From Bradyrhizobiaceae bacterium PARB1 (lineage in GTDB: Bacteria; Pseudomonadota; Alphaproteobacteria; Rhizobiales; Xanthobacteraceae): DNA of 64,000 nt. Positions 10,668 through 29,057 of the stretch are shown here, piece by piece. The translations under genes were made by a program, and so were the position numbers. The notes under the pieces are model-generated. The model was not told the origin of the DNA and searched no databases. It saw only the letters and a program-made list of their open reading frames with translations. Positions within the stretch are counted from its first letter, which is position 1; every line of letters starts with the position of its first letter. The DNA lies in NCBI GenBank assembly GCA_002256345.1, contig NKIY01000011.1, positions 1-64,000 on the forward strand, in the 5' to 3' direction.

Positions 10668-10710
10668 TGCTTCCCTCCCTTGTGTTGCAACCGCCGGATC
10701 AAACCGGCCG

Positions 10711-11788: not shown

Positions 11789-12676
11789 CTACACTCGCTG
11801 AATGTGTTCGCGGCCGAACAGGCCTTCGGGCTTGAGCAACAGCGTGATGACGATGATCACCGAGGCGACGACGTCCCGGGTGCCGCCGCCGACCAGCGGA
11901 TCGAGGAAACCGGAGGCCAGTCCCTCACAAACGCCGACGATGATGCTCGCCACGATGATGCCGACGATGGAATCGAGCCCGCCGAGGATCGCGATCGCAA
12001 GCGCCTTCACCAGCAGAAGCGACAGCGTCCAGTCGACGCCCTGACTGCCTCCCCACAGCACGCCGGCGGCAGTTGCGCTGATGGCGGCAAGGCCCCAGGC
12101 GAAGCCGATGGCGCGCTCGACGCGAATACCCACCGACCACGACGCCACCTGGTCGTCGGACACCGCGCGAAGCATGATGCCCATGCGCGAGTAGAACAGC
12201 AGCAGGGTGGCAACGATCAGGGCCAGAGCGATGCCGCCGCTGACGAGATAGACACGGCTGATCAGCATGTCGCCGAGAAAGATCGGATCGGCGGAAATCC
12301 CGAGATCGAGCCGTTTCGCTGCCGAGCCCAGCGTGCCGGGAACGAGGCCCCGCAGCATGATTTCGATGCCGAGGGTCAGCATGATGATCATGATCATCGG
12401 CTGGCCGGTCAGACGACGCAGCGCCACACGCTCGATGACCAGACCGACGAGGAACATCGCGCCGATCGCCAGAACGATCGCGACGGCCAGCGGAAACCCC
12501 AGCAGGCCGGCGCCAAGCCAGGTCAGGTATCCGCCGCACATGGCGAGCGCGCCCTGCGCCAGGTTTGCAATGCCGGACGTCCGGTAGATCAGGACGATCC
12601 CGAGCGCCACAAGGCCATACATCAAACCGACCAGAGCGCCGTTGATGGCGAGTTCGCCGAATAGACTCAGGTCCAT
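11789..12676 (-). CDS. livH: LIV-type ABC transporter permease LivH
   Basis: A 295-residue permease with about eight hydrophobic segments. The start INGALVGLMYGLVALGIVLI, the loop GIANLAQGALAMCGGYL and the EAA-type loop MGIMLRAVSDDQVASWSVGI are classic LivH marks. GGAGGGATC precedes the ATG and lies inside the 3' end of the ligase gene; the two reading frames overlap by 10 bases, indicating translational coupling. Together with LivM, LivG, LivF and a binding protein it completes one importer. Confidence 0.92.
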   Translation of the reverse strand: MDLSLFGELAINGALVGLMYGLVALGIVLIYRTSGIANLAQGALAMCGGYLTWLGAGLLGFPLAVAIVLAIGAMFLVGLVIERVALRRLTGQPMIMIIMLTLGIEIMLRGLVPGTLGSAAKRLDLGISADPIFLGDMLISRVYLVSGGIALALIVATLLLFYSRMGIMLRAVSDDQVASWSVGIRVERAIGFAWGLAAISATAAGVLWGGSQGVDWTLSLLLVKALAIAILGGLDSIVGIIVASIIVGVCEGLASGFLDPLVGGGTRDVVASVIIVITLLLKPEGLFGREHIQRV

Positions 12677-14619
12677 GATCCCTCCACGTCCAGCACTTTC
12701 AGGTCGCGGCGGATCATGCCCTGTGCGCCGTTCTCGTAAACGATGGGTGCCTCGAAGACGACGTCGGACTGTCGGTCATAGATCGCGCCGATCAGGGCGG
12801 CGTAGCGTTCCTCGATGACCCGTCGCCGCAACTTGCGCGTCCGGGTGATCTCGCCGTCGTCGGCGTCAAAGTCCTTGTGCAGGTTGACAAAGCGGCGGAT
12901 CGCAAGCGCGCCGGACAGCTGCCTGTTGATCTCGCCCAGCGTCTTGCCGATCAGGCCATGCACGGCAGGCTTCTGCGACAGGTCGGCATAGGATGTGTAG
13001 GAAATCCCCTTCCGCTCGGCCCAATGGCCGACCGCTTCGAGATCGATACAGACGATGGCGCCGAGGAACGGCAGACCCGCCCCGGTAATGGCGACATTAC
13101 GGACATAGGGGCTGAACTTGATCCGGTTCTCGATGTAATTCGGCAGATACTGATCGCCGGATGCCGTGCGGACCACTTCACTGACGCGACCGAGCACCCG
13201 CAACTGGCCGTCAGCGCCGATTTCTCCGGCGTCGCCGGTATGCAGCCAGCCATCGACGAAGGTCTTCGCGGTCCCCTCGTCGTCGCCGAGATAGCCATCG
13301 ATGACTGATCCCGACCGCACCAGCACCTCGCCATCATCGCTGATCTTCAATTCGACGCCCGGCAAAGCCCGCCCGACGGTGTCCAGCCTCACCTCGCCAT
13401 CCGGCTGCGCGGCGGTGATGGCGCAGGTCTCGGTCTGGCCGTAGAACTGCTTCAGATTGACGCCGAGGGCGCGGAAGAAAAGAAACGTATCTTCGCCAAG
13501 CGCCTCGCCGCCCGTATAGGCGCGCGTTGCCCGCGACAGACCGATGAAGTCCTTGATCGGACCGAACATCAGGATTTCACCGCAACCGAGCAGCAGCCGA
13601 TCCGCGAGGCCCGGCAGTTTCCCTTGCAGACGGCGACGCTCGATCTCGACGGCGCGCGGCATGAAGAAATCGAACAGCCGCCGCTTGAACGGCGTGGAAT
13701 CCGCCATGCCGACCTGTATCCGCGTCAGCATGTTGTCCCATGCACGAGGCGCCGCAAGATAGACCGTCGGCGCAACCGCACGGAGATCCTGCAGGACCGT
13801 CTCCTGCCGCTCCGGTATGTTGATCGTGCCCTGCAGGAAAACAGTCGCCGACAGCGTGAAGACGAAATCGCCGATCCATGCCAACGGCAGGTAGCCGAAG
13901 CACTCTCCGTTCCTTGCGAAGAAGCCACCTGCCGACGCGTTACGAACTGCCGCCGAAATATGGCGCTGGCGAACCACCACCCCTTTCGGCTGCCCGGTAG
14001 TTCCGGACGAATGGAGGAGCACGGCAATGTCGTCAGGACCGGCACGGCCCAGCAGCTCGGTGCCCAGCCCCATCCTGTTTTCGAGACGCCTGCGTCCGTC
14101 CTTCACCAGGGCTTCGAACGCGATCAGTCCGCTCTCGCGATAGGCCGTCAAGCCCCGCGGATCGTCATAGACGATATAGGCGGGACGACCGATGCGCGCG
14201 CGGAGCTTCAGCAGCTTGTCAACCTGCTCCTGATCCTCGGCGAAAGCGATCGTCGGCTCACCATGCCGCGTGTACAGAAACAATTCGTCCGGAGGAACGT
14301 CGGCATAGACCGGCGCAGGCGCCGCGCCCAGCGCATTGATCGCGAGCATGGCGACGTAGAGATTGGCGCGGTTGTCACCGATGACCGTGACTGTGCCGCC
14401 GCACGACAATCCCAATCCGTCGAGCCCTGCCGCAATGGCGAGCGTTTCATCGAGGACCTGCGCCCAGTCACGCTCGCGCCAGATGCCGAACTCGCGTTCG
14501 CGTATGGCGATCTTTTCGGGAACGCAGCGCGCATTGTCGGCCAGCGCTGCCACCAGCGTCTCCGGCCATGCATCGGTCCTGCCGTCAGGCTCCCGGGGCG
14601 CTTCGACCACATTGATCAT
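12667..14619 (-). CDS. Long-chain-type acyl-CoA synthetase (AMP-forming)
   Basis: About 650 residues from ATG 14619, which overlaps the livG stop as ATGA. The frame stays open far upstream inside livG, but that part is an antisense-free shadow and not protein-like. The adenylate-forming marks are the P-loop LLHSSGTTGQPKG, the YGQTE motif (LKQFYGQTETCAIT), the GWLHTGD motif and RVSEVVRTASGDQYLP. The pattern TRTRKLRRRVIEERY near the end and the overall length place it with long-chain or bile-acid-type ligases found in LIV operons. It converts a carboxylic acid to its CoA thioester with ATP; its position between livG and livH suggests it activates the imported acid. Confidence 0.9.
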   Translation of the reverse strand: MINVVEAPREPDGRTDAWPETLVAALADNARCVPEKIAIREREFGIWRERDWAQVLDETLAIAAGLDGLGLSCGGTVTVIGDNRANLYVAMLAINALGAAPAPVYADVPPDELFLYTRHGEPTIAFAEDQEQVDKLLKLRARIGRPAYIVYDDPRGLTAYRESGLIAFEALVKDGRRRLENRMGLGTELLGRAGPDDIAVLLHSSGTTGQPKGVVVRQRHISAAVRNASAGGFFARNGECFGYLPLAWIGDFVFTLSATVFLQGTINIPERQETVLQDLRAVAPTVYLAAPRAWDNMLTRIQVGMADSTPFKRRLFDFFMPRAVEIERRRLQGKLPGLADRLLLGCGEILMFGPIKDFIGLSRATRAYTGGEALGEDTFLFFRALGVNLKQFYGQTETCAITAAQPDGEVRLDTVGRALPGVELKISDDGEVLVRSGSVIDGYLGDDEGTAKTFVDGWLHTGDAGEIGADGQLRVLGRVSEVVRTASGDQYLPNYIENRIKFSPYVRNVAITGAGLPFLGAIVCIDLEAVGHWAERKGISYTSYADLSQKPAVHGLIGKTLGEINRQLSGALAIRRFVNLHKDFDADDGEITRTRKLRRRVIEERYAALIGAIYDRQSDVVFEAPIVYENGAQGMIRRDLKVLDVEGSWT

Positions 14620-15449
14620 TGCAATGCTCTTTCGGCAGCCTTCTTGCCGAGATAGGCCTCGACGACGGCAGGCTCCGCCATGGCGTCGCGCGGCGTGCCG
14701 TGAGCGATGGTTTCGCCGTAACTGAGCACCAGAACGCGATCGCAAATAGCGGCCACCACATCCATGTGATGCTCGATCACCAGAATGCTGACACCCCGCT
14801 CCTCGCGCGCATCGAGCACGAACCGCGCGATATATTCCTTCTCCTCCTGGTTCATGCCCGCCATGGGCTCGTCGAGGATCAGAAGCTGAGGCTCGCTTGC
14901 AAGCGCGCGGGCCAGTTCGATCCGCTTCTGCATGCCGAGCGAGACAGTCTCGACCGGCTCGTGCCGAACGTCCTGCAGCTGCATGAAGTCGATGATCTCT
15001 TCGACCACCTGACGATGGCGGGTCTCTTCGCGATCCGCCCATCCCCAGTAAAATAGCGCGGGAAGCACACCGGGATTCATATGAGTGTGCCGACCAACCA
15101 TAATATTGTCGAGCACGCTCATTCCCTTGAAGAGCGCCAGATTCTGGAATGTGCGGGCAACGCCGCAACGGGTGATCTGATGCGGCGCCATGCCGGTGAT
15201 GTCGCGCCCGAACAGCTTCACGGAGCCTTCATTCGGCGGATAGAAGCCGGTCACGACATTCACGGTCGTCGTCTTGCCGCTTCCATTCGGGCCGATGAGG
15301 CCGAAAATCTCGCCACGTCTCACGTCGAATGTGACGCCCTTGAGTGCGCGCAAGCCGCCGAACCGGCGCTCGAGGCCGACGCACTGCAACGCAACATCGT
15401 CACTCGACCGACCATCAGCGCCACGCGCATCGCCATTGAGAATGGCCAT
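14616..15449 (-). CDS. livG: LIV-type ABC transporter ATP-binding protein LivG
   Basis: A 277-residue ABC ATPase. Walker A GPNGSGKTT is at 53-61; the signature is the LivG-typical variant SLGMQKR instead of LSGGQ; Walker B is LLILDEP followed by MAGMN. First gene of the eight-gene minus-strand operon that runs to 6357. GGGAGATCTTC precedes the ATG. Sixty bases upstream of the start is the palindrome at 15509 proposed as a TetR operator, shared with the divergent PaaK-like gene. Confidence 0.93.
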   Translation of the reverse strand: MAILNGDARGADGRSSDDVALQCVGLERRFGGLRALKGVTFDVRRGEIFGLIGPNGSGKTTTVNVVTGFYPPNEGSVKLFGRDITGMAPHQITRCGVARTFQNLALFKGMSVLDNIMVGRHTHMNPGVLPALFYWGWADREETRHRQVVEEIIDFMQLQDVRHEPVETVSLGMQKRIELARALASEPQLLILDEPMAGMNQEEKEYIARFVLDAREERGVSILVIEHHMDVVAAICDRVLVLSYGETIAHGTPRDAMAEPAVVEAYLGKKAAERALQ

Positions 15450-15508
15450 GAAGATCTCCCCCCTCGCGCCGCCTTCTTTGCTCCGGCAGCTTGCAAGATG
15501 CTACATAG

Positions 15509-15521
15509 TGAATATCATTCA
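15509..15521. promoter_or_regulatory. Proposed TetR operator 1 (TGAAT-ATC-ATTCA)
   Basis: A 13-bp palindrome TGAATATCATTCA in the 137-base divergent region between livG (start 15449) and the PaaK-like gene (start 15587). The same core is found at 21132, 22053 and 24701, and the 18 bases TGAATATCATTCATCTTG are identical here and at 21132. A second 8-bp inverted repeat (GCAAGATG at 15493-15500, CATCTTGC at 15520-15527) flanks the left side of this copy only. Confidence 0.72.
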
Positions 15522-15586
15522 TCTTGCGATGTCAATCGAACTGACGGAGATCGTCACGTTCGAATCCACCGGGCAAGGAAGTTGCG

Positions 15587-16807
15587 ATGCCGTATGATGA
15601 CCGAGAGCGTGCGCCCCGTTGCGATCGCGAGCGATTGCTTTTCAAGACGTTGCGGGACTGCGTGTCCGACGCAAAAGCACGATGCCCCGGCTGGGCGACG
15701 CGGCTGAACGAGGTCGATCCCTCTGAACTTCATTCGCGCGACATTTTGTCAGCGGTGCCGATCACGCGGAAGTCGCATCTGATCGCGGATCAGGATGCGT
15801 CACCACCCTTCGCGGGTCTTGCGCGCGCCGGGGCCGGCAGCTTCCCCCGTCTCTTCATGTCACCCGGGCCGATCTGCGAGCCGCAATTATCCGCAGCCGA
15901 TCCATGGGGAGCGGCGCGCGCGCTTTATGCAGCCGGTCTGCGCTCCGGCGACACACTGCTCAATACATTCAGCTATCATCTGACGCCCGGCGGCTTCATG
16001 TTCGATTCCGGCGCCCGGGAGAACGGATGCGCCGTGATTCCTGCCGGGCCCGGCAACACGGAGCAGCAAGTGCAGGCCATCGCACGATATCGTCCGACGG
16101 CTTACGGCGGCACGGCTGACTTCCTCAATCTGCTGCTCCAATCATTCTCACAAATCAATGGCGCCGAATTCCCGATCAAGCGCGCAATCCTGTCGGGAGC
16201 CGCAGTGCCTCAGAACCTGCGGGCACGCTTCAATGAAGCCGGCATCGCCGTCTATGAACTCTACGGCACGGCCGAACTGGGTGTCGTTGCCTATGAGACC
16301 GACGCCCATGAAGGATTTGTTGTCAACGAGGACCTCATCGTCGAGATTCTCGATCCTGTCAGCGCAAAGCCCGTGATGGACGGCGAGCCAGGCGAAGTGG
16401 TGGTCACCCGCCTTGCGCGGGATTATCCGCTGTTCCGCTTTGCGACCGGTGATCTATCAGCCGTCATCACGGAGCCGAGCCCTTGCGGGCGTACAAATTT
16501 GCGACTTCGCGGCTGGCTCGGACGCGCGGATCAGACCACGAAGATCAAAGGCATGTTTGTTCATCCCGAACAGGTCATCGCCGTGGTCGCGCGTATCCCC
16601 GGTGCCGCAAGGGGGCGGCTGGTCGTCACCCGCCGCGACGATCGCGACAACATGACACTCGAGATCGAGACATCGCAAGGATCGATCGATCTGGAAGCGG
16701 CAACTGCGCTGCTTGCCGCTGTCACGAAGTTGCGCGGCAATGTGGTTGTCGTGGGCGAGGGAAGCGTTCCGCAGAACGGCGCCATTGTGGACCAGCGTCC
16801 CGCGTAA
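15587..16807 (+). CDS. Phenylacetate-CoA ligase (PaaK)-family adenylate-forming protein
   Basis: A 406-residue protein of the PaaK-like AMP-ligase family. It keeps ELYGTAELG (the YGxTE-type adenylate motif), the block PLFRFATGDLSAV and the C-terminal hinge GRADQTTKIKGMFVHPEQV. The usual serine/threonine-rich P-loop is replaced by RLFMSPGPICEP, which lacks the SSGTTG run; similar replacements occur in a PaaK-like subgroup found in catabolic clusters. It presumably activates a carboxylic acid to a CoA ester, with altered phosphate handling. AAGGAAG stands 7 bases before the ATG. It is transcribed alone, divergent from the livG operon, across the proposed operator at 15509. Confidence 0.85.
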   Translation: MPYDDRERAPRCDRERLLFKTLRDCVSDAKARCPGWATRLNEVDPSELHSRDILSAVPITRKSHLIADQDASPPFAGLARAGAGSFPRLFMSPGPICEPQLSAADPWGAARALYAAGLRSGDTLLNTFSYHLTPGGFMFDSGARENGCAVIPAGPGNTEQQVQAIARYRPTAYGGTADFLNLLLQSFSQINGAEFPIKRAILSGAAVPQNLRARFNEAGIAVYELYGTAELGVVAYETDAHEGFVVNEDLIVEILDPVSAKPVMDGEPGEVVVTRLARDYPLFRFATGDLSAVITEPSPCGRTNLRLRGWLGRADQTTKIKGMFVHPEQVIAVVARIPGAARGRLVVTRRDDRDNMTLEIETSQGSIDLEAATALLAAVTKLRGNVVVVGEGSVPQNGAIVDQRPA

Positions 16808-16837
16808 ACGCGGGACATGGGTACCGCCCGCGTTTAC
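16804..16837. terminator. Bidirectional hairpin shared by convergent gene ends
   Basis: Arms GTAAACGCGGG (16804-16814) and CCCGCGTTTAC (16827-16837) are a perfect 11-bp inverted repeat with a 12-base loop. Each arm carries the TAA stop codon of one of the two convergent genes (ligase TAA 16805-16807; carboxyltransferase TAA 16836-16834). No long T tract follows on either side, so its termination strength is uncertain. Confidence 0.65.
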
Positions 16838-18441
16838 ATGCGGAACACACCGTAATGCGGATCGGCAATGGGCGCGTTCAACGACGCGCTCAGGGCCATG
16901 GCAAGCGCATTGCGGGTATCGACGGGATCGAGGATGCCATCGTCCCAAATCTCCGACGTCGCGTAATATGCGCTGGACTGCCGGCGATAATCTTCCAGGA
17001 TCGGGTCGCGGATATCCGCCATCTCCTGCTCGCTCAAGGTCCGGCCGCTGCGTGCCAATTGGCGCACCTTGATATCGGTGAGGACGCCTGCCGCCTGCTC
17101 CGCGCCCATCACCGAAACCTGCGACTGCGGCCACGTGAACATGAAGCGTGGATCAAAGGCGCGGCCGGACATGCCATACGTCCCGGCTCCGTAGGATCCG
17201 TTGCAGACGACCGTGAATTTCGGCACCGACGCGCCGGCGACCGCCATGATCAGCTTGGCACCGTCCTTGGTGATCCCGTGGCGTTCATATTCGCGGCCGA
17301 CCATGAAGCCGGTGATGTTCTGCAGGAACACCAGCGGCGTCTTGTTCTTGTCGCATAGCTGAATGAAATGCGCGCCCTTCAACGAACTGTCGCTGAACAG
17401 CACGCCGTTATTGGCGATGATGCCGACCTGATAACCGCAAATCCTGGCAAAGCCGCAAATGAGCGATTGGCCGTAACGCGGCTGATATTCATGAAAACGG
17501 CTGCCATCGACCATGCGCGCGATGATCTCGCGCATGTCGAACTGGACGCGCGGATCCTTCGGGATGATCCCGTAAAGCTCTTCGGGATTATAGGCCGGCT
17601 CCTCCGGCTCGATCCAGTCGATGGCCGTTTTTTTCTGGCGGGTAAATCGGCCCACGATGTCCCGGGCGATCGCAATGGCATGCAGCTCGGATGTCGCGGG
17701 ATAATCGCCGGTTCCGGACACGCTGGTGTGCATCTCCGCCCCGCCGAGTTCTTCCGCCGAAACCTCTTCGCCGGTGGCTGCCTTCACAAGCGGAGGGCCG
17801 CCGAGGAAGATCGCGCCTGTGCCTCTGACGATGACATTGTAGTCGCTCAATGCCGGGATATAGGCGCCGCCCGCCGTGCAATGACCCATGACGACGGCCA
17901 CCTGCGGCACGCCCATCTTGGAGAGCGTCGCTTGGTTGCGGAAGATGCGCCCGGCATAATAGCGATCGGCGAAAAACTCGGCCTGCAACGGGAGAAAACC
18001 GCCCGCACTGTCGCACAGATGCACGACGGGAAGCCGGTTCTCGATCGCGATGTCGAGCGATCGCACGATCTTCTTGACCGACAGCGGATACCACGCGCCG
18101 CCTTTCACGCTGGCATCATCGGCGTGAATGATGACTTCCCGGCCCGACACGATCCCGAGGCCAACGACCTGGGCTGCTCCCGGGACTTCGCCGTCATAGG
18201 CCATGTTTCCGGCCAGCGTCGAAAGTTCCAGGAAGGGCGTACCCGGATCGATCAATGCCTCGATCCTGTCACGCACGAACATCTTGTTCTGCCTGGTCAG
18301 CCGCTCGATGTCCCGCGCCGGGCGCTTGAAGCGCGCCGCCTTCTGTCGCTCCTTCAGTTCGGAAGCGAGCCTGCGGTTATGCTCCGCATTGGCCCGAAAA
18401 TCATCGGCACGTGTATCCACCAGTGAACGCAGGCGCTGCAT
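16834..18441 (-). CDS. Acyl-CoA carboxylase, carboxyltransferase (beta) subunit, MCC/GCC-like
   Basis: A 535-residue carboxyltransferase of the methylcrotonyl-CoA/geranyl-CoA/propionyl-CoA carboxylase family. Oxyanion-hole glycines are visible in the N-domain (HLCDSAGGFLPLQ), the biotin/acyl-CoA site in GHCTAGGAYIPALSD, and FLGGPPLVKAATGEEVSAEE marks the MCC/GCC branch. The second half has the matching crotonase repeat (FLQNITGFMVGREYERHG, NGSYGAGTYGMSGRAFDP). The segment FFADRYYAGRIFRNQ differs from ordinary MCC (HFGRIF), hinting at another acyl pocket. It transfers the carboxyl group from biotin to an enoyl-CoA or acyl-CoA. AGGAG lies 10 bases upstream; it is one base from the biotin-carrier gene. 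Confidence 0.9.
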   Translation of the reverse strand: MQRLRSLVDTRADDFRANAEHNRRLASELKERQKAARFKRPARDIERLTRQNKMFVRDRIEALIDPGTPFLELSTLAGNMAYDGEVPGAAQVVGLGIVSGREVIIHADDASVKGGAWYPLSVKKIVRSLDIAIENRLPVVHLCDSAGGFLPLQAEFFADRYYAGRIFRNQATLSKMGVPQVAVVMGHCTAGGAYIPALSDYNVIVRGTGAIFLGGPPLVKAATGEEVSAEELGGAEMHTSVSGTGDYPATSELHAIAIARDIVGRFTRQKKTAIDWIEPEEPAYNPEELYGIIPKDPRVQFDMREIIARMVDGSRFHEYQPRYGQSLICGFARICGYQVGIIANNGVLFSDSSLKGAHFIQLCDKNKTPLVFLQNITGFMVGREYERHGITKDGAKLIMAVAGASVPKFTVVCNGSYGAGTYGMSGRAFDPRFMFTWPQSQVSVMGAEQAAGVLTDIKVRQLARSGRTLSEQEMADIRDPILEDYRRQSSAYYATSEIWDDGILDPVDTRNALAMALSASLNAPIADPHYGVFRM

Positions 18442-18442
18442 A

Positions 18443-18976
18443 TCAAACGTTCTCCTGAGAAAGCGTCACGAGCGGGACATCGCGATCGAAACTGTCGCCG
18501 GCCTTGACGTGAATGCGCGTAACGACGCCGTCCCGCGATGCGCGGATTGCCGTTTCGAGCTTCATGCTTTCGATGACCACGAGAACGGTGCCCGCAAGGA
18601 CTGCCTGTCCCTCCTCCACCTTCACCGCCACGACCACGCCGGGCATCGGCGCGCGGGCAACATTTTGCCCCGCATCGTCCCCCGCGGTGGCGAACGCGAT
18701 CAGAGGGTCCACATATTTCAGCGCGTAAGCCCGGCCTGCGCGGTGAATGTGAACCGTATCGCCATCGATCACGAAAGCGATTGGCTCGCTCAGCCCGTCA
18801 ACGGTCAGGCGGCCGTAACCCGGTACGTCCTCGATCAGCGAGATCGAATGAGTTTTGCCATCCGGGAGGTCCAGTCGATAGGCGCTCCCGGAGCGGGTCA
18901 GCCAGAGTTCGTGAGACTTGCCATCGACGTCGAAGCGGTGATGCACGTCAGTTTCTCCAACCGTGAAGCCGCGCAT
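18443..18976 (-). CDS. Biotin carboxyl carrier subunit of acyl-CoA carboxylase (with BT-like N-terminal region)
   Basis: 177 residues. The C-terminal 75 residues form a biotinyl/lipoyl domain with the attachment site ESMKLE (Lys139) preceded by APMPGVVVAVKVEEG. ESMK replaces the usual EAMK or AMKM, a tolerated variant. Residues 1-105 resemble the BT linker domain that lies between carboxylase and BCCP in MCC/PCC alpha chains, so this gene equals the C-terminal third of a normal alpha subunit. It overlaps the biotin carboxylase gene by 29 bases. The two halves would have to assemble with the beta subunit to an alpha-beta type holoenzyme. Confidence 0.88.
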   Translation of the reverse strand: MRGFTVGETDVHHRFDVDGKSHELWLTRSGSAYRLDLPDGKTHSISLIEDVPGYGRLTVDGLSEPIAFVIDGDTVHIHRAGRAYALKYVDPLIAFATAGDDAGQNVARAPMPGVVVAVKVEEGQAVLAGTVLVVIESMKLETAIRASRDGVVTRIHVKAGDSFDRDVPLVTLSQENV

Positions 18977-20441
18977 GCAGCGGCAGCACCGAATCCGCCG
19001 CGTCGCGCACTGGCCTCGTCAACAGCGCCGCCGCGGCAAGCACAGTAATATCCGCTTCATCCGCAGATGCGCCGCCGCTTGCGATCTCCGGATGTTCATC
19101 GAGATATCCGGTATGAACCCCGTCGTTTCGGAAATTGGCGTTGTCCAGAATGCGCGAGAGGAACGCGGCATTGCTCTCGCAGCCGAGGAAGACGAAATCG
19201 GCAATGGCCGCGCGCGCCTTTGCGATGGCTGCCTCGCGGTCCGGCGCATGCACGATGATCTTGGCCAGCATCGGATCGAAGGCCGTGGTGATCGACTGCC
19301 CCTGTGCAATGCCGCTGTCGACGCGGACGCCCTCGCCCTTCGGATAACGCAGCGCCAAGACCTTGCCAGTGGTCGGCGTGAATTCGCGCTCTGGCGATTC
19401 CGCATAGAGCCGCGCCTCGATGGCATGTCCCGTGCTGTGGATGTCCGTCTGGCTGAAAGACAACGGCATGGCCGCCGCCACCTTCACCTGCTCGGCCACC
19501 AGATCCAGGCCGGTGGTCATTTCGGTGACCGGATGCTCGACCTGGAGACGCGTGTTCATTTCAAGGAAGTAGAACGCCCCCGCGCCGTATATGAACTCGA
19601 CCGTTCCGGCGTTGCGATATCCCGCGGCTCTGGCAATCCCAGCCGCAGTTGCGCAGATCTGCTCGCGTTCCTCCGCCGAGAGCACCGGTGACGGCGTTTC
19701 CTCGATGATCTTCTGAAACCGGCGCTGGACCGAGCATTCGCGTTCGTAGAGATGGACCACGTTTCCAAAATCGTCACCGAGCACCTGCACCTCGATGTGC
19801 CGCGGCCGTTCGACGAAGCGCTCCACATAAAGGCGACCATCCCCGAAGTAACGTTCGCCCTCGCTGCGCGCTTCCTGAATGGCATCTTCCAGCAGCGCCA
19901 GATCCCGAACGATGCGCATTCCCTTGCCGCCACCGCCAGCGGATGGCTTGACCAGCAGCGGTGCACCGACTGCGCGCGCGCGCTCCACGAATGTCGAAGC
20001 ATCTTCCTCCTCGATCGCGGATGGTGCCACGGGAAATCCGTGGCGGGCGACAAACGCGCGGGCACGAATCTTGTCGCCCATCAGTTCGATCGCTTCGACA
20101 GTCGGCCCGATGAAACGGATACCGGCGCGCGTCACCGCGCGGGCGAAATCGGCATTTTCCGAGAGGAAGCCGTAACCGGGATGGAGGGCACCCGCCCCCG
20201 AGGACTTTGCGGCTGCGAGAAGCTGCTCGCCATCGAGATATGCGGCGACAGGTGTCTTTCCGACAATCAATATGGCCTCGTCGGCGAGCGCGACGGCGGG
20301 AGCCCCGGTATCCACCTCATGATAGACCACGATGCTTCGCAGACCGAGGCGACGCAGCGTCTGTATGATGCGAACGGCAATCTCTCCGCGATTGGCGATC
20401 AGGACGCTCTCGAACGGAAACGACAACTTGTCCACGCTCAC
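18948..20441 (-). CDS. Biotin carboxylase subunit of acyl-CoA carboxylase
   Basis: A 497-residue ATP-grasp biotin carboxylase. Marks: start FESVLIANRGEIAVRI (about 10-25), ALHPGYGFLSEN (85-96), the glycine-rich ATP lid KPSAGGGGKGM (165-175), EMNTRLQVEHPVTE (about 290-303). It carboxylates biotin with bicarbonate and ATP. The protein stops after the carboxylase C-domain; the biotin carrier is encoded separately. The first possible start is GTG at 20441, but GAGGG is better placed for the GTG at 20435. It is 4 bases after the tetR stop, so regulator and enzyme subunits form one operon tetR-BC-BCCP-CT. Confidence 0.9.
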   Translation of the reverse strand: MSVDKLSFPFESVLIANRGEIAVRIIQTLRRLGLRSIVVYHEVDTGAPAVALADEAILIVGKTPVAAYLDGEQLLAAAKSSGAGALHPGYGFLSENADFARAVTRAGIRFIGPTVEAIELMGDKIRARAFVARHGFPVAPSAIEEEDASTFVERARAVGAPLLVKPSAGGGGKGMRIVRDLALLEDAIQEARSEGERYFGDGRLYVERFVERPRHIEVQVLGDDFGNVVHLYERECSVQRRFQKIIEETPSPVLSAEEREQICATAAGIARAAGYRNAGTVEFIYGAGAFYFLEMNTRLQVEHPVTEMTTGLDLVAEQVKVAAAMPLSFSQTDIHSTGHAIEARLYAESPEREFTPTTGKVLALRYPKGEGVRVDSGIAQGQSITTAFDPMLAKIIVHAPDREAAIAKARAAIADFVFLGCESNAAFLSRILDNANFRNDGVHTGYLDEHPEIASGGASADEADITVLAAAALLTRPVRDAADSVLPLHARLHGWRN

Positions 20442-20445
20442 TCCC

Positions 20446-21045
20446 TCAGTCGATGCAAATGCCGGATGTCAGCATCGCCGTGAGTTCACGGGCGGTCTGC
20501 GCCGCTCTGAGCTGCCCGCGTCCGTTGACATGCCGCCACGCGAGATGCTCGATGGCGCCGAACAGGACGTCACGCAGAAGCTTGGCATTGGTGTCCGGCT
20601 TCACCTCGCCATTGCCGACCGCCTCGCGCACAATGCGGATCAGGACCGACGTGTATCGACGATTCAGGTCCTGGATCGCGGAGCCCTCATAGTCGCTGGA
20701 GGTACGGACTTCTGCTATGAACAGTCGGCACAGATCCGTATCGGCGACAAAGACGCCGATATGGCGCTTGATCAGCGCCTCCAATCGCGCAGGAAACTTG
20801 TCGTGCTTGAAAACCTCGTGCTCGAGGTCGATCAGGATCCGCGCATAGAATTTCTGCAGGACCCCGTAGAGCAGTTCGCGCTTGCTCTTGAAGTAGCGAT
20901 AGACCAGGCCGTCGGAAATCTTCGCGATCCGTGCGATGTCTGCAATGGAAGCGCCCTCAAAACCTTTTTCGGCGAAGGCCTGTTTGGCAGCGTCGAGGAT
21001 CGCGTCATAGCGATCCTGCATCCGTTCCGGACTAATGGCAGGCAC
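20446..21045 (-). CDS. TetR-family transcriptional regulator, proposed regulator of the CoA-ester catabolic regulon
   Basis: A 199-residue TetR protein. The N-terminal helix-turn-helix is clear: ILDAAKQAFAEKGFEGAS, IADIARIAKISDGLVYRYF, KSKRELLYGV. The rest is a helical ligand domain (FARILIDLEHEVFKHD-like start to ELTAMLTSG end) of the kind that binds acyl-CoA in FadR/PsrA/LiuR-type relatives; the ligand is inferred only. Start is GTG with CAGGAG 6 bases upstream. The proposed operator at 21132-21144 lies 87 bases before the start, so autoregulation together with the three carboxylase genes behind it is expected. Confidence 0.9.
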   Translation of the reverse strand: MPAISPERMQDRYDAILDAAKQAFAEKGFEGASIADIARIAKISDGLVYRYFKSKRELLYGVLQKFYARILIDLEHEVFKHDKFPARLEALIKRHIGVFVADTDLCRLFIAEVRTSSDYEGSAIQDLNRRYTSVLIRIVREAVGNGEVKPDTNAKLLRDVLFGAIEHLAWRHVNGRGQLRAAQTARELTAMLTSGICID

Positions 21046-21131
21046 GTTCGGCTCCTGGAAATCGAATGTTGCTCCGGCACCGGCCGGATGTCACGACGCC
21101 ATCGGCGACGAATCGTGCTCGACGTCCATAC

Positions 21132-21144
21132 TGAATATCATTCA
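21132..21144. promoter_or_regulatory. Proposed TetR operator 2 (TGAAT-ATC-ATTCA)
   Basis: TGAATATCATTCA in the 139 bases between the tetR start (21045) and the crotonase stop (21185). Position and orientation fit control of the tetR-carboxylase operon. Identical over 18 bases to the copy at 15509. Confidence 0.75.
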
Positions 21145-21184
21145 TCTTGGCGTGTCAACCAAGACGCAAGGCATCCAGGACGAT

Positions 21185-21979
21185 TTAGAAACGGGCTGGG
21201 CGCCGCTCGAAGAATGCGGTGATGCCCTCCCGAAATTCTTCGGACGTAGCCGCTTGCTGGAATCCAGCTTTCTCGCGATCGAGCTGAGCATCGAAGTCAG
21301 ACGTGCATGCCTGTTCGACCAGCGCCTTGATGCGCCTGTTGGTTTCGGGCGGGCCGCAGGCAATGCGCTTCGCCATGTCGAGCGCCTCGGATCGCAGTCT
21401 GTCTGCCGGGACGACTTTATTGACGAGCCCCAGCGAGAGCGCAGTCTCTGCAGACATTGCATCATTGAGCCACATCATCTCGAGCGCACGGCGGCGACCG
21501 AGGAGATGGGTCAACGACCATGTCGTGCCGGCGTCCGGACTGGTCCCGATCTTCGAATAGGCCGAAAGCAGCCGCGCATTATCCGCCATCACACAGAGAT
21601 CGCATGAGAGCGCGAAGCCCAGGCCACCTCCTGCGACCGCCCCCGTGAGCCCGGCGACGATCGGCGTCGTCATGCCGCGCATTTCGCGCAGCATCGCGTG
21701 AAATCCGTCGATCAGCTCCGCGGCTGTTTGCGGCGCGGCATCGAGATTTTCCTGGAAGAGGCTAAGGTCGGCGCCCGCCATGAATGCGCGGTCGGAACCG
21801 ACGATGACGACCACCCTGACCGACGGGTCGCGCTCCGCATCCGCCAGAGCCGCGCGGATATCCCCGATCATTTCACGATTGACGGAATTGAGGTTCTGCG
21901 GCCGGTTCAACTGGAGACAGCAGACTGCCCCTTCCCGACTCACAAGCACGGCATCATGGCGTTGCGACACGTCAGTCAT
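21185..21979 (-). CDS. Enoyl-CoA hydratase/isomerase (crotonase) family protein, PaaG-like active site
   Basis: 264 residues with the crotonase fold: oxyanion segments [11 protein letters not shown] (66-75) and [16 protein letters not shown] (113-128). The two glutamates of classic enoyl-CoA hydratase are absent: the first is Gly121, and the second region reads [16 protein letters not shown], where Asp149 sits in the position used by enoyl-CoA isomerases of the PaaG/PaaB and ECI type. So isomerisation or a modified hydration is more likely than standard syn-hydration. GGAGG precedes the ATG by 5 bases. Divergent from the MaoC-lyase pair with an operator copy in between. Confidence 0.87.
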
Positions 21980-22052
21980 GCAATCCTCCGAAGATATTTG
22001 TTGCTCCCATCGCCCTTGCCGCGGAAGGAAGAATGACTATGATGCACAAAAA

Positions 22053-22065
22053 TGAATTCAATTCA
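22053..22065. promoter_or_regulatory. Proposed TetR operator 3 (TGAAT-TCA-ATTCA)
   Basis: TGAATTCAATTCA between the divergent crotonase (start 21979) and MaoC (start 22105) genes. It lies 39 bases before the MaoC ATG and 73 bases before the crotonase ATG, so one dimer pair could govern both directions. Confidence 0.7.
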
Positions 22066-22104
22066 ACAAGGCGGATTCATCCGTCGAGCATAGGATCGCA
22101 TGGG

Positions 22105-22557
22105 ATGTCCGGAAAATTCTTCGATCAGTTCGTCGAGGGGGAAATCATCCATCATCAGGTCACGCGCACGGTGACCGAAACGGACAATCTGCTCTTTACC
22201 GCCCTCACCCACAACGTCCAGCCACTGCATCTGGACGCCGAGATTGCCGGACAATCGGAGTTCGGCCACATCCTGGTGAACAGCATCTTCACCTTCGGCC
22301 TGATGGTCGGCGTATCGGTAACCGACACGACATTGGGCACCCTGGTGGCAAATCTCGGCTTCGAAAAGGTCATCTTCCCCAAGCCGGTGAAGATCGGCGA
22401 CACGCTGCGTGCCGAAACCACGGTGATGGAAAAGCGGCAGAGCCGGTCGCGACCGGGTCAAGGCATCGTCGTCTTCGAGCACCGCTGCATCAACCAGAAG
22501 GGCGAGATCGTCGCGCAATGCCTGCGCTCGACTCTGGTGAAAGGAAGCGCGGCATGA
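22105..22557 (+). CDS. MaoC-family (hot-dog) acyl-CoA dehydratase/hydratase
   Basis: 150 residues from ATG 22105. The frame is open back to 22033, but that extension would include the operator palindrome and has no similarity to the family, while the family start [20 protein letters not shown] follows 22105 at once. The hydratase motif region [21 protein letters not shown] has the typical His-x-Asp end, with His in place of the usual Asp in the first position. MaoC proteins of this form next to a CitE-like lyase include itaconyl-CoA and mesaconyl-CoA hydratases. Stop overlaps the lyase start as ATGA. Confidence 0.85.
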
Positions 22558-23447
22558 CGTTGCGATCCTTTCTGTTCACGCCGGGCGACAGCCGCAAGAA
22601 AATGTACAAGGGTGCAGCCGGTCCAGCTGACGCCCTGATCCTCGACCTGGAAGATTCCGTCGCCGAAGCGAACAAGCCCGAAGCGCGCCGCATGGTACAC
22701 GCGTTCCTGTCCGAACACGCCATGCGGGATCGACAGCAATTATGGGTCCGCATCAATCCACTCGATACACCCCATGCGCGTGGAGACCTTGCCGCCATTG
22801 TCGGCGGCCGACCTGACGGCATCATGCTGCCGAAAGTGCGGTCCGCAAGCGACGTGACGACCTTGTCCCACTATCTCGACGTTCTCGAAATCGCCTTCGA
22901 CGCACCTCCCAACAGCATCCGCATCTTGCCAGTCACCACCGAAACCCCGCAGGCGGTTTTCTCGCTCGGCACCTATGCGGGCGCGAGCGACCGATTGTAT
23001 GGGCTGACATGGGGCGCCGAAGATCTCGCCGCCGCGCTGGGAGCTTCCGCCAATCGCGACGCTTCCGGCACGCTGAATTTCACCTACCAGATGGCGCGAT
23101 CGCTCTGTCTGACCGGCGCGTGTGCGGCAGACGTCACTGCGGTCGAAACTATCTTTCCTGATTTCCGCAACGAAGACGGTCTGCGGATCTATGCGGCGGC
23201 AGCACGCAGCGACGGCTTTCGCGGCATGATGGCCATTCACCCCGGTCAGGTCGAGGTCATCAACGCGGCATTCACGCCCACCGCAAGTGAGACCGAATGG
23301 GCTGAACGCGTCGTCGCAGCCTTTGCGGGATCGACCACCGGCGTCGTCGGACTGGACGGCCAGATGCTGGACATGCCGCATCTGAAGCAGGCGCGCCGCG
23401 TCCTCGAACTCGCGCATCTCGCCGCCAATCGAAGCGCCGGACAATAG
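22554..23447 (+). CDS. HpcH/HpaI (CitE-like) CoA-ester lyase
   Basis: 297 residues of the malyl-CoA/citramalyl-CoA lyase family: start [19 protein letters not shown], metal/CoA site [13 protein letters not shown] (the DLEDSV block), [14 protein letters not shown], and [13 protein letters not shown] (acidic metal ligands). The enzyme would split a 3-hydroxyacyl-CoA into an acyl-CoA and glyoxylate, pyruvate or oxaloacetate. Coupled by ATGA to the MaoC hydratase, it suggests a hydrate-then-cleave pair comparable to itaconyl-CoA hydratase/citramalyl-CoA lyase (Rip pathway) or to beta-methylmalyl-CoA lyase; the exact substrate is unknown. Confidence 0.87.
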
Positions 23448-23469
23448 GCCCGGCGCACCGGCTCCAAAA

Positions 23470-23509
23470 GAAGATGCAGCGCCCGCGATCGGTCGGACGC
23501 AGCATCTTC
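23470..23509. terminator. Hairpin between convergent genes
   Basis: Arms GAAGATGCAGCG and CGCAGCATCTTC pair over 12 positions with one A-A mismatch, loop 16 bases. It lies between the lyase stop (23447) and the stop of the minus-strand gene (23526), where a two-way terminator is expected. The plus strand has AAAAG before it, giving CTTTT on the minus transcript. Confidence 0.7.
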
Positions 23510-23525
23510 CAGCACGCCTTCGGGA

Positions 23526-24524
23526 TCAATGCGGGAAGCCGACCAGCCCGCCCTCTTCAATGCGCTCGATGTACTCCGTCATGCCATAGCCGGTCACACC
23601 GTCCCAGGTGAACCTGGTCAGGCCTTCCGCGATGCGCGATACAACGATCTGGTCTTCGATCTTTCGGCGATTGCGCAGCGGCGCAAGCGACACCACCTCG
23701 CCGTGAATGACCACACGGCGATTGGCCGTTCGAACATTGATGCGAACGCGTGACGGATCCTCCGCCGCAGTCCAGTCGGTGACGACGTCCATGTCGACAA
23801 CCTCCTCATAGGCGCCATCGACGAGGAGGACGCCAAGGCGCCGAACGCGCCCGGCCGCGTCGGTGATCTTGAGAAGCATGAAGCCGCGGCCATGTCCGAG
23901 ATTGGCCAGAAACAAGCGATAGAAATAGATGTTCTGCCAGAGACGCGGCCCCCATGAGTGGTCGCGCCAGCCACCGCCCTCGATATGATGCGTCTCGGTT
24001 CCGACCGTGATGTGCCCGGACACCGCGGTATGCTGGTTGAAGTGCCCCAACGAGAAATTCCAGCCATACATGGGCTCATGCTCGGGCGACGACGGCACGC
24101 CGCCATGCATGGGCGAGACACCCGTTTGACGAAATTGGACCTGACCGGTCACACGCTCCGCCTCCTTGAACAATCGCTCGGGATTGCGCAGCAATTCCTT
24201 GTTGCTGAGCAGCAGCAATTCCCCATCGTAGTTCATCTCGACATGTCGGAAGGCCTCCTTCACATCGTAAGTGAGCCCCCCAGCCGAGAATTGCTGATTG
24301 CCCGTGATTTCAGGACGGCGGAACTGGCAGGCAATGCGACCGTCCGGAAGGTACAGGCAGACGGACAACTCGGCGTAGCCCTCATTGACCCGGTTTCCGA
24401 TGCGCATCCAACCGCCGATACCACTGCGCTGATCGAAGCCGTTGCAATAGACGCTTTCGTTGAAATGCGGCTCGGATGTCGGCTCGTGCGGCCACTCATC
24501 GCGTTGCGTCAATCGATAGGTCAT
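23526..24524 (-). CDS. DUF7064/DUF7065-like protein (CrtC/AttH-type lipocalin-like fold)
   Basis: 332 residues from ATG 24524, which has GGAGGGAG two bases upstream; the frame is open to 24710, but that would cover the operator at 24701. Residues near 200 read HIEGGGWRDHSWGPRLW, the hallmark of the tandem DUF7064/7065 family related to hydroxyneurosporene synthase and AttH. No signal peptide or membrane segment. The family has no agreed function; it recurs in lipid, steroid and terpenoid catabolic clusters. Its place in this regulon suggests a role with a hydrophobic substrate, perhaps binding or hydration of a double bond. I cannot assign a reaction. Confidence 0.8.
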   Translation of the reverse strand: MTYRLTQRDEWPHEPTSEPHFNESVYCNGFDQRSGIGGWMRIGNRVNEGYAELSVCLYLPDGRIACQFRRPEITGNQQFSAGGLTYDVKEAFRHVEMNYDGELLLLSNKELLRNPERLFKEAERVTGQVQFRQTGVSPMHGGVPSSPEHEPMYGWNFSLGHFNQHTAVSGHITVGTETHHIEGGGWRDHSWGPRLWQNIYFYRLFLANLGHGRGFMLLKITDAAGRVRRLGVLLVDGAYEEVVDMDVVTDWTAAEDPSRVRINVRTANRRVVIHGEVVSLAPLRNRRKIEDQIVVSRIAEGLTRFTWDGVTGYGMTEYIERIEEGGLVGFPH

Positions 24525-24700
24525 CACTCCCTCCATATGTGTCGCCCGACGCATTCTCGCGCCCGCGAATGCAGCGCGGGCGCCCGGCGTCGTCGTTCGC
24601 GTCTCGATGCCGCGGCGATATCCGTCAAGGCGTGACCGAACATCGTCCGCGCAGGTTTGCCTTGCAATCTCTCGCGCAGCACGGATAGAGTATCCAAAAA

Positions 24701-24713
24701 TGAATGACATTCA
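24701..24713. promoter_or_regulatory. Proposed TetR operator 4 (TGAAT-GAC-ATTCA)
   Basis: TGAATGACATTCA ends 13 bases before the ATG of the binding-protein gene at 24727, so a bound repressor would sit on the promoter or early transcript of the seven-gene plus-strand operon. It is also 177 bases upstream of the divergent DUF7064-like gene. Confidence 0.72.
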
Positions 24714-24726
24714 ATAGGGAGCGAAC

Positions 24727-25968
24727 ATGGCCAATCGACCGCTTGAATCTGCATTCCTGCACGTGATCTGCGCGATCACGCTCGCCGGCGCAGCCACGCT
24801 TTCATTTGCGGACCGCGCGTCTGCCCAGATCAGCGATGATGTCGTCAAGATCGGCGTGCTCGGCGACATGAGTTCGCTCTACGCAGATATCGCCGGGCCC
24901 GGATCCGTCGTGGCGGCGCGTTTGGCGGTGGAGGATTTCGGCGGGACGGTGCTCGGCAAGAAGATCGAGATCATCTCGGCCGATCACCAGAACAAGCCGG
25001 ATATCGGCGCAAGCATTGTCCGCAAGTGGTTCGATGCCGAGCAGGTCGATGCGGTGGCAGACGTTCCCAACTCGGCGGTGGGAATCGCGGTGCACGGGAT
25101 CGCGCGCGAGAAGAACAAAGTTCTGCTCGGCTCGGGCACGTCGCTGACGGACCTCACGGGCTCGCAATGTTCGCCCAACTCGGTGATCTGGACCTTCGAC
25201 ACCTGGGCGCTGGCGAACGGCTCGGCGACGGCGCTGCTGAAAACCGGCGGAAAGAAATGGGCGTTTCTCACTGCCGACTATGCATTCGGCCATCAGCTTG
25301 AACGCGATGCCAGCGCCTTCGTCAAAGCCGGTGGCGGCGAGGTCGTCAGCGTCATTCGTCACCCGCTGAACACGTCGGATTTTTCATCCTATCTGCTCCG
25401 CGCACAATCGAGCGGCGCGAATGTGATCGCTTTGGCAAATGCCGGTGCCGATACCGCGAACACCGTCAAGCAGGCGCGCGAATTCGGCATCGGTCAAGGC
25501 CAACAGAAACTGGCGGCTTTGGTGGCATTCATCAGCGACGTCCACGCCCTCGGGCTTCCCGTGGCGCAAGGCCTCGTGCTGACATCGGCATTTTACTGGG
25601 ACATGAACGACCAGACCCGCGCCTGGGCGAAGCGCTTCGTCGCGAGAAATGGCGGCAAATATCCAACTATGGTCCATGCCGGCGTGTATGCCGCTGTGCT
25701 GCACTATCTCAAGTCCATCGAGAGCGGAAAAACCGATGCAGGGCTTGATGTCGTCAACGCCATGAAAGCGATGCCCACCGATGACCCCCTGTTCGGCAAA
25801 GGAAAAATTCGCGCCGATGGTCGGCACGTCCACCCGATGTATTTGTTCGAGGTGAAAAAACCGGACGAGTCCAAATATGCTTATGACTATTTCAAGCTGG
25901 TGGACACGATCCCGGCCGAACGAGCTTTCCGCCCGATCAGCGAAGGCGGTTGCTATCTGGTCAAATGA
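24727..25968 (+). CDS. LIV-type ABC transporter substrate-binding protein (paralogue 3)
   Basis: 413 residues with a signal peptide ending near residue 34 (RASAQ). It shares KIGVLGDMSSLYADI, the DHQNKPD block, QCSPN, TADYAFGHQLERD and MPTDDPLFGKG with the proteins at 2285 and 6357, but is the most divergent of the three. GGGAGCGAAC precedes the ATG. As first gene of an enzyme operon lacking permease genes, it must rely on LivHMGF encoded elsewhere; the operon at 6357-15449 under the same proposed operator is the obvious partner. Confidence 0.9.
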   Translation: MANRPLESAFLHVICAITLAGAATLSFADRASAQISDDVVKIGVLGDMSSLYADIAGPGSVVAARLAVEDFGGTVLGKKIEIISADHQNKPDIGASIVRKWFDAEQVDAVADVPNSAVGIAVHGIAREKNKVLLGSGTSLTDLTGSQCSPNSVIWTFDTWALANGSATALLKTGGKKWAFLTADYAFGHQLERDASAFVKAGGGEVVSVIRHPLNTSDFSSYLLRAQSSGANVIALANAGADTANTVKQAREFGIGQGQQKLAALVAFISDVHALGLPVAQGLVLTSAFYWDMNDQTRAWAKRFVARNGGKYPTMVHAGVYAAVLHYLKSIESGKTDAGLDVVNAMKAMPTDDPLFGKGKIRADGRHVHPMYLFEVKKPDESKYAYDYFKLVDTIPAERAFRPISEGGCYLVK

Positions 25969-26000
25969 TCTGAAGCTCTGCGATCGATCAGCCAAAGCAG

Positions 26001-27008
26001 GTGAATCAGTTGGATAGTCAGTTGCAGGATGGATTTGCCGAACTGCGTCGGGCGATGCGACGACGATTTGGTGAATCTGTCGCGATCGAAAATATCGAGG
26101 TGCCGAGTCTTGGCGGCAGCAATCGCACCGTCCTGTTCGATCTCATCGACGGCAGCACTCGCAAGCGCGTCGTATCGCGGCAGCGCACCTATGAGGGAGC
26201 GGATAGCCCCTTCCTCGACGCCGCTCAACAGTTCCTTCTGATGGAGATCGCTCATCGGGAAGGCGTACCGGTCCCCGAACCGATTCTACTTTTTTCGCCT
26301 GAGGACCAGCTCGGCGACGGATTTGCATCCGCCTTCGTGGTCGGCGAGACGATGCCCAAGCGCATCATCGAACGCTTGCAGCATGAACAGACTGGCGCCG
26401 AGTTCACGCGACAGCTGGGACGGGTTCTCGCCCGCCTTCACCAAGTTCGCGCGGAGACCACTTTCCTGCACGACATCCCGGACAGCATCGACGCGATCGA
26501 TGCACAGCGCCAACGCTACGATTCATACGATGAACCGCACCCGGCGATCGAGCTCGGTTTCCGTTGGCTCGAGCGCAATCGCCCGAAACCCGCCACCCCT
26601 GTCCTGCTCCACGGCGATTTTCGTAACGGCAATCTCATGGTCGGGAACAACCGCGTGGTGGCGGTCCTGGATTGGGAGTGCGCTCACCTGGGCTCGCCAG
26701 CCGAAGATATTGGCTGGCTGACCTGCAGACCCTGGCGTTTTGGCCGGACCGATCAACCTGTGGGCGGATTTGGTCAACTTGCAGACTTGCTGGCATCCTA
26801 TCACGAGGCCGGCGGCGCCGCGATCGACGCCAGCGAGGTGCAGTACTGGCAGGTCTTCGGTCTTTTGCGCTGGGCGGTGATCAACATGATGCAGGCCCAT
26901 GGCCACCTGTTCGGCAACCGACGAGACCCGGTTTTCGCAGCCTGCGGACGCAACACGAGCCTGATCGAATACGATCTCCTGATGACGCTGAAGGGCCTCT
27001 ACCGGTGA
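26001..27008 (+). CDS. Aminoglycoside-phosphotransferase-fold kinase (ACAD10/LvaA-like)
   Basis: 335 residues of the APH/choline-kinase fold. The catalytic loop HGDFRNGN is at 204-211 (Asp206 base) and the metal motif VLDWE at 222-226, followed by AHLGSPAEDIGWL. This branch, fused to acyl-CoA dehydrogenase in ACAD10/ACAD11 and separate as LvaA of Pseudomonas putida, phosphorylates 4-hydroxyacyl-CoA esters. Start is GTG 26001; a TTG at 26010 is better spaced to AGGTGA and remains possible. It is followed by a DUF6285 gene, the same pairing as lvaA-lvaB. Antibiotic resistance is not suggested by the context. Confidence 0.85.
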   Translation: MNQLDSQLQDGFAELRRAMRRRFGESVAIENIEVPSLGGSNRTVLFDLIDGSTRKRVVSRQRTYEGADSPFLDAAQQFLLMEIAHREGVPVPEPILLFSPEDQLGDGFASAFVVGETMPKRIIERLQHEQTGAEFTRQLGRVLARLHQVRAETTFLHDIPDSIDAIDAQRQRYDSYDEPHPAIELGFRWLERNRPKPATPVLLHGDFRNGNLMVGNNRVVAVLDWECAHLGSPAEDIGWLTCRPWRFGRTDQPVGGFGQLADLLASYHEAGGAAIDASEVQYWQVFGLLRWAVINMMQAHGHLFGNRRDPVFAACGRNTSLIEYDLLMTLKGLYR

Positions 27009-27018: not shown

Positions 27019-27381
27019 ATGAGCCAATACAGGCCTTCGATGGCCAACCTGATCGAAACGGTCGAGCAATTTCTCGACAATCTTGCCCCCAACCTGAAGG
27101 GAGAGCTCAAATACAAGGCGAATGTATCGTCTTATCTTCTGGCGATCTGTCGCAGGGAAATAGCAGCTCAAGGAGCAGAGAATGCGGCGGATCTTGCAGC
27201 CTGGCGCCAACTCCTCGGCACCTCCGCTGAGGACCCAGCGCAGGCGCGCCGCGATCTCTGCGAACGTATTCGCAACCGTGAATTCGACGACAGGTTCGAT
27301 GAATTTCTAGCGGTCCTGCTGGAGCGAACCGCCAGTGAGGTTCGCATCGTGCGGCCGGAACACCTCAAGGCCCAAGCTTGA
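27019..27381 (+). CDS. DUF6285-family small protein (LvaB-like partner)
   Basis: 120 residues: YRPSMANLIETVEQFLDNL at the start, a central helix YKANVSSYLLAICRREIA, then a helical acidic/arginine-rich second half. This is the DUF6285 pattern. Its homologue LvaB is needed together with kinase LvaA for phosphorylation of 4-hydroxyvaleryl-CoA, so this is probably a kinase subunit. It starts 10 bases after the kinase stop. Confidence 0.75.
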   Translation: MSQYRPSMANLIETVEQFLDNLAPNLKGELKYKANVSSYLLAICRREIAAQGAENAADLAAWRQLLGTSAEDPAQARRDLCERIRNREFDDRFDEFLAVLLERTASEVRIVRPEHLKAQA

Positions 27382-27421
27382 AAAGCGCCGCACGAACGGC
27401 GCGTATACCGAGGAAGCGATC

Positions 27422-29056: not shown

Positions 29057-29057
29057 C

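Follow-up and report, generated by a model that had tools for sequence, protein, structure and literature searches.

A four-site palindromic operator and a candidate FadR-like TetR regulon in a catabolic gene cluster of Bradyrhizobiaceae bacterium PARB1

Which genes are controlled by the TetR-type regulator encoded within a large catabolic cluster of Bradyrhizobiaceae bacterium PARB1, and through which operator? The cluster lies in the first 64,000 nucleotides of contig NKIY01000011.1 (assembly GCA_002256345.1), and this whole stretch is called the window below. A preliminary description of the window had proposed that copies of the palindrome TGAAT-N3-ATTCA (TGAATNNNATTCA) in its promoter regions define a TetR regulon. 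The rarity of the palindrome, its clustering and its conservation together with tetR lend support to this proposal. From these sequence comparisons we consider it very probable that the FadR-like TetR protein represses its own 24-gene cluster, for the uptake and breakdown of a branched acid, through four operators.

An exact search of the window returned four copies of the palindrome, at 15509-15521, 21132-21144, 22053-22065 and 24701-24713 (sites 1 to 4), and no further one, as had been described. None of 100 dinucleotide shuffles of the window contained four copies (mean 0.04). The window held no copy with one mismatch, and at up to two mismatches its 20 copies were at chance level (shuffle mean 19.7). 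Sequence comparison also confirmed that sites 1 and 2 have 18 identical bases in common. Random frequency throughout the genome, which had been named as counting against a regulon, was not observed: four of the five exact copies in the PARB1 genome (6.95 Mb) were in this cluster. The fifth was inside overlapping open reading frames (ORFs), scored below 18 bits on the longer matrix described below and adjoined a gene that by eye resembles a small heat-shock gene; its position within ORFs and its matrix score led us to reject it as a target. With one mismatch allowed, the genome contained 65 copies, and many contigs were represented among the 50 listed.

Among 18 genomes of the genus, only PARB1 and G169 had a tetR match at E<=1e-60. 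In the roughly 90.7 Mb of the 16 genomes without tetR, several of them drafts of hundreds of contigs, 29 exact copies were counted; no two of them on the same contig were less than 175 kb apart. At this rate 0.003 copies are expected per 9.2 kb, giving a Poisson probability of about 3e-12 for four or more, a value that is somewhat generous given the AT-richer DNA of the sites (39-48% GC in the 61 bases around each, compared to 60% in the window). Because two of the 16 genomes also reached five exact copies, the genome total is unremarkable and the clustering is the significant part.

To define the operator independently, a symmetric matrix of 29 columns was built from 27 sites at 20 related loci, with no window site included. 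L012 was one of these loci, and the other 19 had an intact tetR; of the 20 intact-tetR loci only L028 was dropped, as having the same site as L027. The matrix placed the four window sites at ranks 1 to 4, and the weakest of them was 16.6 bits above the next-best match in the window (10.2 bits). Column-shuffling the matrix 200 times gave fourth-best window scores of at most 9.3, and a single best score that once reached 23.1. Conserved A/T positions were seen beyond the 13-mer in the matrix, and the operator is therefore about 21 bp. The four sites of the preliminary description are real, but its 13-bp palindrome is shorter than the operator, and it mentioned neither the promoter-like elements close to which the operator follows nor the FadR-like character of the regulator.

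At this length operator 1 (15505..15525; matrix score 28.4) lies between the livG operon on the minus strand and a PaaK-like ligase gene on the plus strand. Operator 2 (21128..21148; 31.7) precedes the minus-strand tetR-carboxylase operon, and operator 3 (22049..22069; 26.8) lies between a crotonase gene (minus) and the MaoC and CitE-like lyase genes (plus). Operator 4 (24697..24717; 28.1) separates a DUF7064 gene (minus) from an operon for a binding protein, a kinase and a ligase (plus). The longest ORFs of MaoC (from 22033) and DUF7064 (to 24710) overlap sites 3 and 4, and homology starts only downstream of these sites, from 22105 for MaoC and from ORF residue 65 for DUF7064; the DUF7064 gene therefore probably starts downstream of operator 4. 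A genome search with the 21-mer at up to three mismatches gave six matches, the four window sites and two others, at C6:92488 (21.3 bits, upstream of an ORF that by eye resembles lepB) and C20:44971 (below 18 bits). Both of the latter have a broken core and were rejected as targets.

The regulator gene, tetR (20446..21045, minus strand, GTG start), encodes 199 amino acids. Its product showed a TetR_N domain (E=8e-16) and an all-helical, YsiA-type C-terminal domain, as is characteristic of the TetR family, and the predicted model had ten helices and a mean predicted local distance difference test score (pLDDT) of 92.7. The nearest solved structures by both sequence and fold were FadR (YsiA) proteins of Bacillus subtilis and B. 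halodurans (E=6e-20 for the sequence alone and 2e-36 as a profile; template modelling (TM) score 0.82 for the predicted fold, at about 24% identity). The operator of Bacillus FadR contains TGAAT, with a different arm spacing. No other match to this TetR was found in the PARB1 genome at E<=1e-10. Both the window and the orthologous loci have the palindrome, in conserved form, in front of tetR.

That a site lies beside a gene does not by itself show which protein binds it, and the palindromes might instead be bound by another regulator encoded elsewhere, with tetR merely one of its targets. We regard this as improbable. Pfam searches found no second regulator among the cluster genes, and the genomes of the genus without tetR showed scattered single copies only. 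Moreover, the site tracks the tetR lineage. When named genomes were searched with an alignment of the TetR protein, 26 loci were recovered, of which 20 had an intact tetR (42-82% identity), two had remnants and four were weakly related. In 19 of the 20 intact loci a site with at most one mismatch was found 32-160 bp upstream of tetR, so that the conservation beside orthologous clusters that had been suggested as support was indeed seen. At the two remnant loci, L031 and L032 (10001-10384), tetR is present only from residue 72 on and its DNA-binding part is gone; neither locus has an operator, and neither showed a dehydrogenase match in the gene map, which included matches covering at least 40% of the query. 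The missing N-terminal part was not found beside either remnant when the search was rerun without the coverage filter, and by its sequence this tetR is a natural remnant. No site was seen at the four weakly related loci; for one of them (L038) the upstream sequence covered was just 39 bases. Across 411 kb from 22 related loci TGAAT-N3-ATTCA occurred 17 times, compared to at most one occurrence for each of the 29 other half-site permutations and for every alternative spacer length from 0 to 8.

Two further observations were made in this search. The contig of L017, from a record titled Streptomyces sp. AcH 505, is probably contamination, because its tetR is about 81% identical to that of the window and its neighbours match as well. 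An exact TGAAT-N3-ATTCA also occurred at L015:14498 (genome G045), close to two relatives of TetR that are 33-34% identical, and the motif may therefore be common to more distant regulators.

The operators also accompany target genes that have been rearranged. In Chelatococcus reniformis the cluster is in a different order, and four operators were found on one contig over 59 kb (the contig was read outside 82.4-104 kb). They stand at the tetR-carboxylase-liv genes, at a dehydrogenase gene (62% identical), at a short-chain dehydrogenase (SDR) gene (54%) and between a DUF7064 gene (70%) and a group of ligase, binding protein, kinase and DUF6285 genes. The genes adjoining these sites are relatives of the window targets, except for the ligase (31%). 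Sites adjoined crotonase-family genes in L024, L026, L030, L034 and L069 (23-51% identical), and a MaoC gene (75%) was preceded by a site in L017. In L036 a site lies between the genes for a beta-keto acid cleavage enzyme (BKACE; 72%) and biotin carboxylase.

The livG operator may have arisen from that of tetR. In L022, L024, L025, L026, L030 and L034, six related loci that include liv genes, the livG match begins 16-30 bases after the carboxyltransferase match, and no operator was found at this junction. In the window the PaaK-like gene occupies the junction and livG is preceded by a separate operator; around it, 29 of 34 bases are identical to the tetR promoter (hand count on the alignment). 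In our reading, this suggests that the tetR promoter and its operator were duplicated before livG, and that co-regulation was thus kept.

Promoter anatomy was compared at 19 tetR-proximal sites (L028 and L036 were left out and L012 added). A TTGACA-like element, matching at 5 or 6 of 6 positions, started 12-16 bp upstream of the operator in 15 of the 19, and for window sites 1 and 2 a TTGACA complete at all six positions was found on the minus strand, 14 bp upstream. An operator close behind such an element fits a promoter-blocking repressor, and the arrangement suggests that the dimer would sit between or on the promoter elements. We propose that the tetR product acts as a dimeric FadR-like repressor. 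It would bind the four palindromes, which are about 21 bp long with the core TGAAT-N3-ATTCA and lie in promoters of the cluster that encodes it, and one or two transcription units would depend on each operator. At tetR itself and in front of most of its orthologues, the dimer would sit just after the TTGACA (-35-like) element and keep polymerase off the promoter. The repressor would be released once the coenzyme A (CoA) thioester of the imported substrate had bound to its C-terminal domain. Release would induce uptake by an ATP-binding cassette (ABC) transporter, activation by ligases, and degradation by isovaleryl-CoA dehydrogenase-like and methylcrotonyl-CoA carboxylase-like enzymes, hydratases and lyases.

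Some TetR proteins activate, and the regulator might activate, or act in both ways, instead of only repressing. In keeping with this, two sites separated by 48-164 bp precede tetR in L012 and L016-L021. In 15 of 19 tetR promoters, however, the operator follows closely on a TTGACA-like element, a position that is usually a polymerase-blocking one, and we judge activation to be just as improbable as a regulator encoded elsewhere. In L016 and L018-L021 the two operators are 48-60 bp apart in a divergent promoter between tetR and an acyl-CoA dehydrogenase gene. These pairs may permit cooperative binding. A chance or structural palindrome that serves no regulator (a transposon end, an uptake signal or an AT-rich promoter feature) would agree with the AT-richer DNA around all four sites, but has almost no likelihood in view of the scores from shuffled matrices, the counts for permuted half sites and other spacers, and the cross-genus conservation at matching promoters.

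Repression by the FadR-like TetR remains the reading that we prefer, and several observations weigh against it. At 4 of the 19 tetR-proximal sites (L016, L017, L020 and L021) TTGACA was matched at only 4 of 6 positions, and within the window the element was checked at sites 1 and 2 only. A generic scan for sigma-70 promoters and terminators gave no excess of promoter-like sites over shuffles, and we therefore claim no -10 positions. L036 lacks a site directly upstream of tetR: its sites occur in front of an acyl-CoA dehydrogenase gene that is downstream on the same strand, between the BKACE and biotin carboxylase genes and, at a distance of about 2 kb upstream, in front of an ORF of 473 codons. 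The related loci are partly non-independent, L027/L028 and L030/L034 being near duplicates. Several 21-mer matches in relatives have no explanation: one in Chelatococcus (C8:264310), where a reversed control pattern also gave one match, four in G169, one each in G075 and G054, and two on another Croceicoccus contig. One is strong: at L064:1505 (G054, on a 5-kb contig) a 21-base palindrome perfect except at its centre scored 29.2 bits away from the known cluster. Finally, the regulator scored 104.4 bits on the NCBIfam FadR model NF053878, compared to an equivalog cut-off of 200; it is therefore named FadR-like and not FadR, and we infer a CoA thioester ligand at the level of the fold only.

If operons are assigned by strand and spacing, 24 genes from 6357 to 31685, tetR included, would belong to the regulon, in agreement with the earlier estimate of at least 20 genes under one regulator. 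Gene identities were taken from Pfam domain searches. Operator 1 would serve an eight-gene minus-strand operon running from 15449 to 6357, which begins with a livG-type ABC ATPase (14616..15449) and continues with an AMP-forming acyl-CoA ligase (12667..14616), two branched-chain type ABC permeases (11789..12676 and 10711..11784), a periplasmic binding protein (9414..10760), a livF-type ABC ATPase (8620..9411), BKACE (7632..8564) and a second periplasmic binding protein (6357..7589). The divergent PaaK-like CoA ligase gene (15587..16807, plus strand), which splits genes that are contiguous in relatives, would be served by the same operator. The probable operator 2 unit consists of tetR and three carboxylase genes, all on the minus strand: the biotin carboxylase subunit (18948..20441), the biotin carboxyl carrier subunit with BT_MCC_alpha and biotinyl domains (18443..18976), and the carboxyltransferase subunit of the 3-methylcrotonyl-CoA carboxylase group (16834..18441).

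Operator 3 would serve the crotonase gene of the enoyl-CoA hydratase family (21185..21979, minus) and, divergently on the plus strand, a MaoC-type hydratase (22105..22557, start placed by homology) and an HpcH/HpaI (CitE-like) C-C lyase (22518..23447). The remaining units, assigned to operator 4, would be the DUF7064/DUF7065 gene (23526..24710 as the listed ORF, minus) and seven plus-strand genes from 24727 to 31685. These encode a periplasmic binding protein (24727..25968), an APH-type kinase (26001..27008), a DUF6285 protein (27019..27381), an AMP-forming acyl-CoA ligase (27335..29056), a second MaoC-type hydratase (29058..29528, with a presumed GTG start in an ORF listed from 28575), an isovaleryl-CoA dehydrogenase-like acyl-CoA dehydrogenase (29606..30817) and an SDR (30798..31685).

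The enzymes give some indication of the substrate. The carboxyltransferase matched methylcrotonyl-CoA carboxylases at 606 and 603 bits, compared to 454 for geranyl-CoA carboxylase. Because its best match (610 bits) was a chain of 9tps labelled propionyl-CoA carboxylase beta, the matches do not settle its substrate; other propionyl-labelled chains reached at most 274 bits, except AccD1 of 4q0g (acetyl-/propionyl-) at 600. The five best structure matches of the dehydrogenase were isovaleryl-CoA dehydrogenases, and none of its 10 matches at E<=1e-75 was named ACAD10/11. A second carboxyltransferase, 54% identical, is encoded elsewhere in the genome; the cluster copy is therefore probably a paralogue for a substrate other than leucine, and ordinary leucine degradation was set aside. 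A 4-hydroxyacid route of the levulinate (Lva) type was suggested by the kinase and DUF6285 genes, a pair which we take to be comparable to lvaA/lvaB. This route was rejected, as the dehydrogenase is of isovaleryl type and has no ACAD10/11 among its 10 matches at the above threshold. The kinase had no solved relatives at E<=1e-15. Our guess is that the substrate is a 3-methyl-branched acid.

The closest precedent among known systems is FadR of Sulfolobus acidocaldarius, a TetR protein with four genomic sites, including an operator at its own gene, that represses a 30-kb, 23-ORF acyl-CoA catabolism cluster and is released by acyl-CoA (PMC6449355). As in PARB1, four sites accompany one large cluster, but that system is archaeal and has a 16-bp motif and genes for lipases and beta-oxidation, whereas the PARB1 cluster has a carboxylase route. 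The same source describes Bacillus FadR as acyl-CoA responsive. Mycobacterial BkaR is likewise an autoregulatory TetR repressor, with acyl-CoA carboxylase genes (accA1/accD1) in its operon and repeated palindromic operators; its 16-bp core, GTTA-N-T-N4-A-N-TAAC, is not matched here, and both phylum and cluster are different (PMC3920632). Pseudomonas AtuR/RdmA is a TetR repressor of a cluster for a biotin-dependent acyl-CoA carboxylase with 13-bp inverted repeats (PMC9973270). The carboxylase genes and the 13-bp repeat suggested a system of this type, which we rejected: the AtuR/RdmA operator (AGCAAGCGCTTGG / CCAAGCGCTTGCT) differs from TGAAT-N3-ATTCA (PMC9973270), and the PARB1 carboxyltransferase is nearer to the methylcrotonyl type than to the geranyl type. 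LiuQ, a TetR regulator of branched-chain amino acid use, belongs to a related kind of pathway and is reported to be unique to betaproteobacteria among the classes studied (PMC5343134). Thermus FadR (PMC5597230), a survey of TetR proteins (PMC3511530) and ACAD10/11 (PMC11342911) are covered by further literature. Searches for the exact operator strings returned no paper in the literature searched, and searches with combined descriptions were also unproductive.

The operators are confined to the cluster in PARB1 and stand at matching promoters in relatives, the pattern of a single-cluster regulon with several operators. We are evenly divided on the broader proposal that this TetR regulon is of an undescribed, cluster-specific type found chiefly in Alphaproteobacteria. 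Under that proposal a FadR-like repressor would own a carboxylase-dependent catabolic island, and its operators would travel with rearranged targets. The tetR-carboxylase-liv operon, split by the PaaK-like gene, would be co-regulated through a duplicated tetR promoter, and the island would encode a new route for a 3-methyl-branched acid. The analysis yields a testable regulator-operator pair and, by proposing which 24 genes belong together, a path to the substrate of the island. Its rearranged relatives with matching operators offer a clean case for how a local regulon stays coherent. If the ligand is as proposed, the pair could also be used in Alphaproteobacteria as an expression switch that responds to acyl-CoA.

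To the left of the cluster (301-4478, minus strand) are genes for an aldehyde dehydrogenase, an alpha/beta hydrolase and another periplasmic binding protein, with no operator nearby. To its right, a serine recombinase gene (41226-43130, minus strand) and an integrase-like gene (46987-48108, plus strand) suggest a mobile element.

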